Shown here: positions 1,727 to 60,908 of the stretch, in pieces
Layout: each line of letters opens with the position of its first letter
How positions within the stretch are numbered: the first letter of the stretch is position 1
Assembly (NCBI RefSeq): GCF_000515395.1
Contig: NZ_KI911782.1
Coordinates: 2,540,606-2,604,605, forward strand
Reading direction: 5' to 3'
Origin: Jiangella gansuensis DSM 44835
GTDB taxonomy: Bacteria > Actinomycetota > Actinomycetes > Jiangellales > Jiangellaceae
DNA: 64,000 bases
Notes under the pieces: model-generated
What the model was told of the DNA's origin: nothing
What the model saw: the letters and a program-made list of their open reading frames with translations, nothing else
Database searches by the model: none
Translations under genes and position numbers: made by a program

Positions 1727-1797
1727 AAATGATCACGTTCGGCATGGGTCCTCCCGCTTCACCACCCATGCTTGCCTGGTGGGGCGGGAGAACGCCT
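1727..1797 (-). repeat. 71-bp hairpin repeat element, copy E1
   Basis: Copy E1 of a 71-bp family (others at 13286, 42594, 43267, 54100). Read on the minus strand it runs from AGGCGTTCTCCCGC to the tail ending CGTGATCATTT. The stem CTCCCGC/GCGGGAG is perfect and the loop contains the invariant GGCAAGCAT. Its tail diverges slightly (CCATGCCGAACG). It lies between convergent priA and the ABC ATPase gene, with the tail nearest the priA stop, and could act as a transcript 3' structure. Confidence 0.85.
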
Positions 1798-1851
1798 GGC
1801 GTGGCCCGGCAGGGGCGGGGCGGGGGCGTCGCCGGCTGGAGCCCGGGGCGG

Positions 1852-13262: not shown

Positions 13263-13356
13263 AAAATGATCACATCCACCACACCAGGCGTCCTCCCGCG
13301 TCACCAGGCAAGCATTCCTGGTGGAGGAGGAGCGCCCATGGTGGACGTGATCATTT
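13263..13356 (+). repeat. 71-bp hairpin repeat element, copy E2, with a second inverted tail
   Basis: The 71-bp core is 13286-13356 and ends in CATGGTGGACGTGATCATTT. Uniquely, this copy also carries an inverted tail on its left side (AAATGATCACATCCACC, 13264-13280), so the whole unit is bounded by terminal inverted repeats; with flanks they extend to CCCCGAAA/TTTCGGGG. It lies between dodecin and the fabG promoter (candidate -10 TAGCGT at 13417). Confidence 0.88.
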
Positions 13357-37340: not shown

Positions 37341-37360
37341 GTTCAGATCGTGCCACCGCC

Positions 37361-37465
37361 CGAGGCACGCTTCTACGCCGAGGGCGCGTGTGACGTCCGA
37401 GGCATGCTTCTACGCCGAGGGCGCGTGTGACGTCCGAGGCATGCTTCTACGCCGAGGGCGCGTGT
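37361..37465. repeat. 37-bp tandem repeat, 2.8 copies
   Basis: The unit starts CGAGGCATGCTTCTACGCCG and ends GCGTGTGACGTC. Copies start at 37361 (one C/T difference), 37398 and 37435 (ending after 31 bases). It fills most of the divergent intergenic region between dinB and the USP gene, where both promoters must lie. The unit is not a multiple of three and no gene runs through it. Confidence 0.92.
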
Positions 37466-37542
37466 AGTGGTCTGTGACGGCCGAGGCTGCGGTAGCGTTG
37501 CGCCGCGACCTGGAGAACGGGTGTGCAGTGGAGGAGGACCCG

Positions 37543-41828: not shown

Positions 41829-42599
41829 TTGGTCGCTGAGCGGGTGCTCGTCCCGTACCACCTGGACGAGCACCGGCCGGACCTCGACGTCCCGGTGCCT
41901 GCGTCGACCACGGTGCGGGCACCGCTGCCGGCGGACGGCACGGTGTGGGACCGGATGGCCGTGTTGTACGACCAGGTCGCCGACGTCGTCGCGGATGCGG
42001 TCGCGCCGGCGCGGTCCGAGCCGGCAGCGGAGCCGGTGCTCGTCCAGTCGGCCGACTGCACGACGTCGCTGGGCACGGTGGCCGGCCTGCAACGCGCCGG
42101 CGTGACTCCGTCGGTGGTCTGGTTCGACGCGCACGGTGACGTCCAGACGCCGCAGACGTCTGCGTCGGGCTACGTCGGCGGCATGCCGGTGCGGATCCTG
42201 GCCGGCTACGGACCGGAGCTCATCGCGACCCGGCTGCGGCTGGCCGCGGTGCCGGAGGAACGCATCGTGCTGGTCGACGCGCGCGACCTCGACCCGCCGG
42301 AGCGCGAGTACCTCGAGTCGTCGGCCGTGCGGCGAGTGTCAGTCCCCGCCCTGGACGCGTCGGTGTTGCCCGACGGGCCCATCTACCTGCACATTGACCT
42401 CGACGTCGTGGACTCCGCGCAGGTGCCGGGCCTGCTGTTCCCGGTGCCGGGCGGCCCGTCGCTGACCGAGGTGGCGGCCGCGATGCGGCGAGTGCTCGAC
42501 ACCGGCCGGGTGGTCGCCGTCGGGCTCGCCTGCACCTGGCACGACGGCCACGCCGCCGCCGACGTCGTCCGCGCGGCCCTTCGTCTCCCATGGAAATGA
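41829..42599 (+). CDS. Arginase/agmatinase family hydrolase
   Basis: A 256-aa ureohydrolase-fold protein. The binuclear metal motifs are present: WFDAHGDVQTP (DAHxD), HIDLDVVDS (DxDxxD); the first motif reads SADCTTSLG instead of the usual GGDHS, so one metal-binding His is replaced. Substrate is unknown. It starts at TTG two bases after the sigA stop. The final codons (W-K-stop) are supplied by the tail of repeat element E3: the TGA lies inside AAATGATCAC, implying that the original C-terminus was altered or fixed by the element. Confidence 0.8.
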   Translation: MVAERVLVPYHLDEHRPDLDVPVPASTTVRAPLPADGTVWDRMAVLYDQVADVVADAVAPARSEPAAEPVLVQSADCTTSLGTVAGLQRAGVTPSVVWFDAHGDVQTPQTSASGYVGGMPVRILAGYGPELIATRLRLAAVPEERIVLVDARDLDPPEREYLESSAVRRVSVPALDASVLPDGPIYLHIDLDVVDSAQVPGLLFPVPGGPSLTEVAAAMRRVLDTGRVVAVGLACTWHDGHAAADVVRAALRLPWK

Positions 42600-42664
42600 T
42601 CACGTCCACCATGGGCGTTCACGCCTCACCATGAATGCTTGCCCGGTGCGGCGTGAGGACGCCT
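42594..42664 (-). repeat. 71-bp hairpin repeat element, copy E3
   Basis: Minus-strand copy with the full tail CATGGTGGACGTGATCATTT. Its stem differs from the other copies at two paired positions (A-T instead of C-G at element positions 11/44; C-G instead of T-A at 15/40), which preserves pairing. The tail overlaps the stop codon of the arginase-family gene. Together with E4 it brackets the GNAT pseudogene with tails facing outward. Confidence 0.88.
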
Positions 42665-42742
42665 GGTAGTGGGTGCCGCCTGGGATCGGAGCTCGCCGGA
42701 AATGATGTGCGGCGCGCCGTCCGCCCAGGCTAGCGTTCGCGG

Positions 42743-43262
42743 ATGATCTCGGTGGACCGCGTGGCACCCGATCAATGGGTGGCGCAGGACGATGACAGCA
42801 GGGTCGCCGGGCGGCTACGGGTCCTCGTCCGACCGGACGAGCGGTGTTTCGCGCTGTTGGGGCCATGCACGGCACACGTCGCGGGCCCGCTGCTGGACGC
42901 CTCCTGGCCGCCACCGATCGCGGCCTGCGGGTGGAGGTCGACGCCGACGACGGCGCCCGGCTGGCCCTGCTGACCAGCCGCGGCTTCGGCATCGACCGCC
43001 GCGAGCACGTGTACGAACTATCCACCCGGCGGGCAGATACTGACGTCGCGCTGCTCGACGGCTTTGGCTTCCGATCAGCGGCCGACGTCGATCCGGCGGC
43101 GTTGTGTGCACTCGACGAGGCGGTGCGCCGCGACGTGCCGGGCGTGGGGGAGTGGCATAACGATCTCGACACATTCCGCCGCGAGACCTTCGGTGATCCG
43201 CAGTTCGATCCTGCGACGTACCTGGTCGCCGTCGACGGTGGCACCGGCGGCCCCGGCAACAC
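42743..43262 (+). pseudogene. Frameshifted and 3'-truncated GNAT acetyltransferase
   Basis: The frame from the ATG at 42743 (MISVDRVAPDQWVAQDD... GPLLDA) is abandoned near 42900 and continues in another frame as LLAATDRGLRVEVDADDGARLALLTSRGF... DPATYLVAVDGGTGG. Adding one base near 42900 joins them into a smooth acetyltransferase sequence. The second half of the domain is then missing: coding similarity stops at about 43260, where repeat element E4 begins. A leaderless -10 (TAGCGT, 42731-42736) still precedes the start. The gene is therefore dead, unless the frameshift is a sequencing error, which would not explain the truncation. Confidence 0.8.
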
Positions 43263-43266
43263 TTCT

Positions 43267-43337
43267 AGGCGTTGTCCCGCTTCGGCAGGCAAGCATTCCT
43301 GGTGGTGGGGGAACATCCATGGTGGACGTGATCATTT
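43267..43337 (+). repeat. 71-bp hairpin repeat element, copy E4
   Basis: Plus-strand copy with intact loop and tail (CATGGTGGACGTGATCATTT) but the weakest stem of the five. It abuts the truncation point of the GNAT pseudogene and ends 32 bp before the rhomboid gene -10 element. Confidence 0.87.
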
Positions 43338-43381: not shown

Positions 43382-43993
43382 ATGTCGTCCTCGGGTGAGG
43401 TCACGCGGCGGCGCCAGCTGCCGCCGGCCGTCGCGGCCACGGTTCCGGTCTTCGTCCTGGTGCTGGTCATGTGGGCCAGCGAGATCGTCGACGCGTTGCC
43501 TGGCGTCGACCTCGACCAGTACGGTATCCGGCCACGTGACGGGGAAGGGCTCATCGGTGTCCCGGCCTCGCCGTTCCTGCATGGCGGCTTCGATCACCTC
43601 ATCGCCAACACCGGTGCGTTCCTGGTGCTCGGCGGGCTGATCGCGATGACCACGCGGCGGTTCTGGCCGGTCACCGTGGGGGTGGCGCTGGTCGGCGGTT
43701 TCGCCACCTGGCTGGTCGCCGCGCCCAACACCGTGCACATCGGAGCCAGCGGCCTGGTCTACGGCTACGCGGCGTTCCTGGTGGCCTGGGGTGTGCTGAG
43801 CCGGCGAGTGCTGAGCATCGTCGTCGCGGTGGTCGTCGTGCTCATGTACGGCGGCATCGTGGTCGGCGTGTTGCCGGGGCAGCCGGGCATCTCCTGGCAG
43901 GGGCATCTGTTCGGCGCCGCGGCCGGGGTGCTGATGGCGTTCCTGCTGCGCGGCCGCGCGGCTCGTTCAGGCGGTGCGAACGCCATCCGCTGA
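43382..43993 (+). CDS. Rhomboid family intramembrane serine protease
   Basis: A 203-aa six-helix rhomboid protease. The catalytic dyad is Ser123 in GASG and His175 in GHLFG; the N-terminal loop segment HGGFDHLIANTGAFLVLGGLI corresponds to the HxxxN oxyanion-side helix. It cleaves transmembrane substrates within the membrane; substrates are unknown. The start is fixed by the leaderless promoter. Upstream frames run into repeat E4 and the pseudogene. Confidence 0.92.
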   Translation: MSSSGEVTRRRQLPPAVAATVPVFVLVLVMWASEIVDALPGVDLDQYGIRPRDGEGLIGVPASPFLHGGFDHLIANTGAFLVLGGLIAMTTRRFWPVTVGVALVGGFATWLVAAPNTVHIGASGLVYGYAAFLVAWGVLSRRVLSIVVAVVVVLMYGGIVVGVLPGQPGISWQGHLFGAAAGVLMAFLLRGRAARSGGANAIR

Positions 43994-46837: not shown

Positions 46838-46852
46838 GACGTGATCATTTCC
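46838..46852 (+). repeat. Solo 15-bp match to the repeat-element tail
   Basis: GACGTGATCATTTCC is identical to the last 13 bases of the 71-bp element tail plus the two flanking bases seen after E4. No loop or stem accompanies it. It may be a decayed remnant or a free-standing site for the same factor. Confidence 0.5.
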
Positions 46853-54099: not shown

Positions 54100-54170
54100 G
54101 GGCGTCCTCCCGCTCCACCGGGCAAGCATTCCTGGGGGAGCGGGAGTACCCATGGTGGACGTGATCATTT
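54100..54170 (+). repeat. 71-bp hairpin repeat element, copy E5
   Basis: Plus-strand copy with the best stem: CTCCCGCTCC pairs perfectly with GGAGCGGGAG, extended by CC/GG after one mismatch. Loop and tail (CATGGTGGACGTGATCATTT) are intact. It lies between the carbonic anhydrase stop (6 bp away, tail side) and the GNAT promoter. Confidence 0.9.
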
Positions 54171-60848: not shown

Positions 60849-60908
60849 CCCCATGATCATCAAGCGTTGGCCCGGTTCTGGCCGGGTCAACGCTTGATGA
60901 TCATGGGG
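60849..60908. terminator. 27-bp-arm hairpin after the PH-like gene
   Basis: Arms 60849-60875 and 60882-60908 match at 26 of 27 positions with a six-base loop TTCTGG; each arm carries CATGATCATCAAGCGTTG on its outer side. It begins two bases after the stop of the PH-like gene on the minus strand and ends about 50 bases before the parC start. Very stable; also symmetric enough to be a mobile palindrome. Confidence 0.8.

Follow-up and report, generated by a model that had tools for sequence, protein, structure and literature searches.

In Jiangella gansuensis DSM 44835, a GNAT acetyltransferase gene lies between two oppositely facing copies (E3 and E4) of a short palindromic repeat, and the strand of this gene differs between two groups of Jiangella species exactly between the two elements. 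We consider it probable (roughly 60%) that recombination or template switching between E3 and E4, which are inverted relative to each other, turned the gene round. The locus suggests that repeats of this kind help flip DNA segments. The features of the window, the whole stretch of 64,000 nucleotides that was analysed, are collected in Table 1.

Table 1. Positions of the repeat elements and genes in the window
Feature	Position	Strand	Basis or remark
E1, 73-bp single-tailed copy	1727..1799	-	
E2, 93-bp double-tailed copy	13264..13356	+	73-bp unit plus an extra 20-nt tail (by eye)
Arginase-family gene	41829..42599	+	PF00491, E 2.1e-22; ORF ends in AAATGA of the E3 tail
E3, 73-bp single-tailed, tail outward (left)	42594..42666	-	tail AAATGATCAC at 42594-42603 (+)
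Decayed GNAT acetyltransferase gene	42743..43251	+	tblastn search using the J. asiatica protein (intact, 255 aa), alignment, Pfam on relatives
E4, 73-bp single-tailed, tail outward (right)	43265..43337	+	tail AAATGATCAC at 43328-43337 (-)
Rhomboid-family gene, right neighbour	43382..43993	+	PF01694, E 6.9e-23 on 43382-43990
Tail of a relic	46841..46850	+	arm like the J. asiatica subfamily, not the local one (by eye)
E5, single-tailed copy	54101..54170	+	extent is that of the match to E3
52-bp hairpin of the second family, ATGATCAT ends	60853-60904		

E3 and E4 are inverted repeats of each other (75% complementary over 95 nt), and their outward tails bound a 744-bp block, as the original prediction had stated. 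The TGA stop of the arginase-family gene lies within the E3 tail, and the J. asiatica ortholog has the same ending. Other close pairs stand at 916 kb, 963 kb, 1.13 Mb, and 1.51 Mb of the genome. Gaps shorter than 1.5 kb numbered 4 among the 65 elements listed in 0-1.76 Mb, a range over which the listing was taken as complete, against 3.5 expected; the closeness of E3 and E4 was therefore dropped as a special feature, since the frequency of such close pairs equals chance.

The locus was compared among 12 Jiangella genomes, all of which have the arginase neighbour. J. asiatica (G004) likewise has an element at either edge, and the GNAT gene between them is intact, encodes 255 residues, and is on the same strand as in J. 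gansuensis. The tail at the E3 site of this species (L136) has one mismatch and again supplies the arginase TGA, and the E4 site is occupied too. The comparison of relatives that had been proposed did return an intact GNAT gene without exact tails, in G002, G006, and G011, but on the opposite strand; a remnant on that strand was found in G008. The GNAT stop overlaps the arginase stop in G002 and G006. No exact tail was found at the arginase-rhomboid locus in the ten Jiangella besides J. gansuensis and J. asiatica, and six Jiangella genomes have no detectable GNAT. By eye, GNAT is accompanied by its upstream motif GCTAGCGT in either orientation, and the rhomboid gene retains its own upstream box. 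In G008 (L142), a second copy of the arginase C-terminus adjoins the GNAT remnant.

Single-gene trees of arginase (12 rows) and rhomboid (11 rows, G011 having no rhomboid gene in its stretch) both placed J. gansuensis and J. asiatica on one well-supported side, against the other ten and the other nine genomes, respectively, with the root set at the midpoint only. With a threshold of E 1e-15, 5 of the 22 genomes of the taxonomic family, all of them Jiangella, gave a GNAT match, and none of the other genera did; therefore, the flip is not polarised by an outgroup. The simplest reading puts it on the branch that carries elements at both edges, and the direction of the flip is unrooted. The insertion or element-mediated deletion originally proposed was supported in so far as the relatives reveal a rearrangement of exactly this block, which looks like an inversion in place.

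The GNAT gene of J. gansuensis is decayed. Alignment and tblastn with the J. asiatica protein placed residues 1-54 at 42743-42904 and residues 30-170 in a different frame, up to 43251, which indicates one frameshift near 42904, in agreement with the earlier reading of the block. A lost 3' half ending at the edge of E4 had also been described; the loss is real, but it amounts to a third of the gene (codons 171-255, the last 85 of 255), and homology stops at 43251, 13 nt short of the tail-less edge of E4. Pfam gave no GNAT match on the two remnant pieces and matched Acetyltransf_1 (GNAT) in four intact relatives. The lost base and the terminal deletion are confined to J. gansuensis among the 12 Jiangella genomes, and the G008 remnant differs from that of J. 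gansuensis. Because the J. asiatica gene is intact between elements at the same places, the presence of the elements did not kill GNAT, contrary to the suggestion that their arrival had done so. Read from these sequences, the elements predate the decay of GNAT. The position of the deletion end, 13 nt from E4, is suggestive, and no proof, of an element-linked deletion.

E3 and E4, both 73 bp long and single-tailed, belong to a palindromic repeat family that is large in J. gansuensis. The exact 10-nt tail occurs 213 times (114 + 99) in the genome (5,585,780 bp, a single contig), and the reversed tail pattern gave no match there. Within the window, the tail with at most one mismatch matched 8 times against 0.48 expected, a number reached by none of 100 shuffles. 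A second form of the family is 88 bp long and carries one tail at each end (a double). A search open to 72-102 bp returned 24 doubles in J. gansuensis, 23 of which measure exactly 88 bp. The exception is the 93-bp E2, which had been taken to show the geometry of the block in miniature: its double tail was confirmed, but by eye E2 differs from the usual 88-bp double and reads as a 73-bp unit with a 20-nt tail added. In many single-tailed copies the far end is defined too, with the sequence CGCCTGG. This end was not recognisable by the CGCCTG pattern in 34 of 71 single tails, and 36 of the remaining 37 measure 72 nt to CGCCTG; therefore, the 73-bp form exists in its own right, beside more worn copies. 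By eye, some J. asiatica doubles (e.g., L068, L071, L083, and L093) have further bases of the CACACCGTGGCCTCG type in common outside the tails, and part of the family may accordingly be longer than 88 bp.

The window gave no Rfam match at gathering scores. A conserved short ORF starting from the tail ATG was dropped on inspection by eye, as the copies of the MAG BP_166 stop after five codons, and carriage by phage was likewise set aside because the single match to a viral contig (93 bp, AT-rich) was taken as chance. No description of these Jiangella repeats was met in the portions of the literature searched, and it is solely this negative that suggests them to be undescribed. Elsewhere in the window, at 37357-37467, a 37-bp unit stands in three tandem copies, the second 95% and the third 89% like the first.

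Five doubles were folded and gave long hairpins (z -7.4 to -15.9), E2 with its flanks reaching -58.5 kcal/mol (z -7.4). Unlike the doubles, E3 and E4 folded alone were weak (z -1.8 and -1.1). Pairing was analysed in 30 chosen 88-bp Jiangella doubles (14 of 23 from J. gansuensis, 12 from J. asiatica, and 4 others, several reoriented by hand). Paired changes on both arms filled 93 cells, compared with 45.4 +/- 5.6 after shuffling; measures counting pairs and types were less clear, being reached by 39 and 166 of 500 shuffles. In these rows, which were picked by the presence of the 10-nt tails, 11 of the first 12 pairs (the 12-nt ends) are invariant, and the inner stem varies on both sides. Insertion into pre-existing palindromes was rejected: the flanks looked complementary by eye, but their column-wise pairing equals that of shuffles.

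To score where the repeats stand relative to genes, 60 loci, 15 double loci, and four pieces of the window were run through a crude gene caller based on GC3. One of the 71 single tails scored inside a called gene; this was E4, where the caller mis-starts the rhomboid gene, and E4 was left out of the neighbour counts. Among the other 70, 56 tails face the gene ending there and 14 the gene starting there, and in 14 of the 56 the TGA of the gene is the TGA within the tail. A tail lies within 30 nt of a stop that it faces in 42 of 65 singles, against 18.1 +/- 2.5 for random position and orientation in the same gaps. Of 15 of the 24 J. gansuensis doubles and 34 J. asiatica doubles, 1 and 6 lay at edges and went unscored; the 42 scorable ones stand in convergent gaps in 22 cases and in divergent gaps in none, compared with 32 and 35 of 166 background pairs. 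Their median distance to the facing stop is 18 nt in J. gansuensis and 59 nt in J. asiatica. BP_166 doubles are convergent in 8 of 14 cases and divergent in 1, and the five doubles of Actinopolymorpha alba depart from this rule (1 convergent, 2 divergent). According to the parts of the reports consulted, REPs near gene 3' ends are known in other bacteria (PMC3733652, PMC12306157). From its placement and pairing, the hairpin right after the stop codon would most likely act as an mRNA terminator or a 3'-end protector, bidirectional where there are two tails.

A search of a collection of 84,980 genomes for the double pattern gave 89 stretches. Among the 80 listed, 59 belong to Jiangella, A. alba, or BP_166, and 57 of these are exactly 88 bp (the exceptions measuring 87 and 95), so that a defined unit exists whose ends, the tails, do not vary; the other 21 come from other taxa, and none is 88 bp. 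A. alba and BP_166 interiors look unlike those of Jiangella. Two of the listed stretches, L028 and L037, are from Flaviaesturariibacter flavus, of an unrelated phylum; they are 85 bp long, have the same 10-nt ends, and by eye are very alike with one reversed. In a sample of the class, 9 of 393 genomes matched, the non-Jiangella ones being G126 (14 copies), G019 (one of 88 bp), and G013 (one of 92 bp). The 12 Jiangella genomes carry 210, 172, 44, 27, 11, 10, 6, 5, 1, 1, 1, and 0 tails. Counts of tails and of the second family are whole, and arm types and lengths are from the matches listed.

The second family consists of palindromes with ATGATCAT ends, mostly 52 bp among the Jiangella matches listed, with many interiors that are unrelated to one another and each self-complementary. 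Its end pattern was found in 20 of the 22 genomes of the taxonomic family and, among the 393, in 15 further genomes (a single match in ten of them); its CAAC subfamily occurs in 11 of the 12 Jiangella. At 1225-1350 of L178, a 52-bp palindrome is nested in a copy of the tail-bearing family, and this nesting points to putative mobility of the 52-bp type.

Sites shared between species were sought with 26 J. gansuensis genes, the first 26 of 39 suitable ones (a single tail at most 35 nt from the stop, gene of at least 130 aa). For these genes, chosen for a tail after the stop in J. gansuensis, the ortholog 3' end had a tail within 110 nt (at most one mismatch) in 8 of the 20 J. asiatica orthologs that could be used, five of these tails being exact. 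The corresponding figures are 1 of 18 for G006 and 0 of 19 for G010; 6, 8, and 7 genes, respectively, were unusable in the three genomes. The expectation for J. asiatica is about 0.5 of 20, from 172 exact tails and an estimated 6,500 genes. In ten J. gansuensis-J. asiatica site pairs, E3 and E4 included, the orthologous copies are 50% identical in gap-free comparison outside the 12-nt end (the J. gansuensis copy L203 is broken off and its pair is 28%), non-orthologous copies between the species 51%, and copies within a species 67-72%. Orthologous copies are thus no more alike than unrelated ones, which indicates that copies were overwritten by the species' own type or that sites were hit twice. 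The tail stands at the same nucleotide relative to the stop in 4 of the 10 pairs (L195, L171, L174, and E3), which leans towards overwriting, and not in five others. Downstream of the L173 ortholog in J. asiatica, L284 contains a degenerate copy that by eye is gansuensis-like, so that both subfamilies may once have coexisted.

We propose that a non-autonomous, fixed-length, hairpin-forming (REPIN-like) repeat would settle mostly at gene 3' ends, and that GNAT had come to be flanked by one copy on each side before J. gansuensis and J. asiatica diverged, since elements occupy the two sites in both species. Recombination or template switching between the oppositely facing copies would then have flipped GNAT together with its promoter region. 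Later, in J. gansuensis only among the 12 genomes, GNAT lost one base and its last 85 codons, the latter by a deletion ending beside E4. The tail of E4 faces a gene start and is an exception to the placement rule.

The order of events could also be reversed, the inversion having unrelated causes and the elements landing later at both new edges, since gene 3' ends are favoured. The strong preference of the elements for such ends agrees with this, as does the sharing of 8 of 20 sites where about 0.5 were expected, as if some sites were hot. We regard it as unlikely, because the two species bearing the flip have an element at each edge, the loci of G002, G006, and G011 with the intact unflipped gene have no exact tail, and E4 precedes a gene start, which is not a favoured site. 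The repeats might instead be immobile, that is, vertically inherited RNA hairpins of gene 3' ends under selection, alike within a species through gene conversion. Their placement after stops, the pairing preserved by double changes, and the failure to find a RAYT-type transposase in Jiangella fit this view, which is nevertheless quite unlikely given that tail numbers run from 0 to 210 within one genus, that empty sites (e.g., L163 in G010 versus G006, and L194 in G004) indicate gain or loss of whole units, and that a 52-bp palindrome of the second family sits within one copy. It is very unlikely that the whole tail-to-tail block is a composite mobile unit carrying GNAT, with the tails as terminal inverted repeats, that was excised and re-inserted in reverse or arrived from elsewhere: in its favour, the block ends in tails in J. 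gansuensis and J. asiatica alike, the left tail provides the arginase stop (a role that 14 of 56 ordinary single copies have for their own gene), and GNAT is undetectable in six relatives; against it, four relatives carry this gene at the same locus on the opposite strand, no target duplication surrounds 65 doubles, and close pairs are no commoner than chance. The tails, which had been predicted to behave as terminal inverted repeats, are the invariant ends of the repeat unit; mobility of the 744-bp block itself is not supported. An inversion in place between E3 and E4 therefore remains the preferred reading.

Among known systems, the family resembles REPINs and REPs in having many palindromic intergenic copies (here 213 tails and 24 doubles), in inverted doublets that fold into one hairpin (here five doubles and the covariation), and in the occurrence of singlets and doublets in one genome, with species-specific sequence, near gene 3' ends and between convergent genes; these REPIN/REP traits are taken from the parts consulted of PMC3116915, PMC3733652, and PMC8049555. 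Unlike in those systems, the Jiangella singles include a defined 73-bp form and not only decaying remnants. The GTAG tetranucleotide was found at one end in 4 of 56 cases, against 5.2 expected. A RAYT (Y1_Tnp) gene was found in none of the 12 Jiangella genomes, the control being found in 5 of 14; the records of BP_166, J. asiatica, and J. endophytica gave no RAYT/Y1 match, and those of A. alba gave 9. Mobilisation by RAYT is thus unsupported in Jiangella, and with Y1 genes in A. alba there is no consistent link. In the part consulted of PMC3733652, the phyla given for GTAG and CGTC repeats do not include Actinobacteria. The family works like a REPIN, yet it is not filed as one because the GTAG tag and the RAYT gene were both sought and not found.

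CGTC-tagged REPs (Rickettsia RPE and others) are, in the part of PMC3733652 consulted, likewise short palindromes without a dedicated transposase, but the Jiangella ends are TGATCA-based and the length is 73 or 88; 11 of 56 tails have CGTC or GACG close to an end, a raw count given without a null. The family shares with MITEs a non-autonomous nature, terminal inverted repeats (the 12-nt ends), and a fixed length. It differs from them in lacking a target-site duplication: around 65 doubles taken from 4 genomes, direct repeats of 2-10 nt in the flanks (offsets 0-6) were no more frequent than in shuffles. Gene calling was applied to three tail-outward blocks, L115-L117, and no parent transposon was met in the material covered. 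The 88-bp form resembles bidirectional intrinsic terminators, with an A-rich side, a strong hairpin, and a T-rich side, often between convergent genes. On the other hand, the T-run of the 73-bp form faces the upstream gene, the wrong side to terminate that gene.

As a broader and doubtful conjecture, Actinobacteria may hold a system, its transposase unknown, of fixed-length palindromes with invariant TGATCA ends (88, 73, and 52 bp) that would recognise the ends and the length but not the interior, place copies at stop codons, and rewrite resident copies to the species' own arm, and whose pairs would flip intervening genes. At this locus, short dispersed hairpins occupy the two edges of an inverted gene, a clear example from nature, and they belong to a REPIN-like family without a detected RAYT in which the length is fixed and the arms are free to change. 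Related genomes with 0 to 210 tails (many in J. gansuensis and J. asiatica, none or one in G001, G002, G008, and G010) offer a simple comparison in which to seek the mobilising enzyme, and the discordant copies at shared sites make gene conversion and recurrent targeted insertion directly testable against each other.
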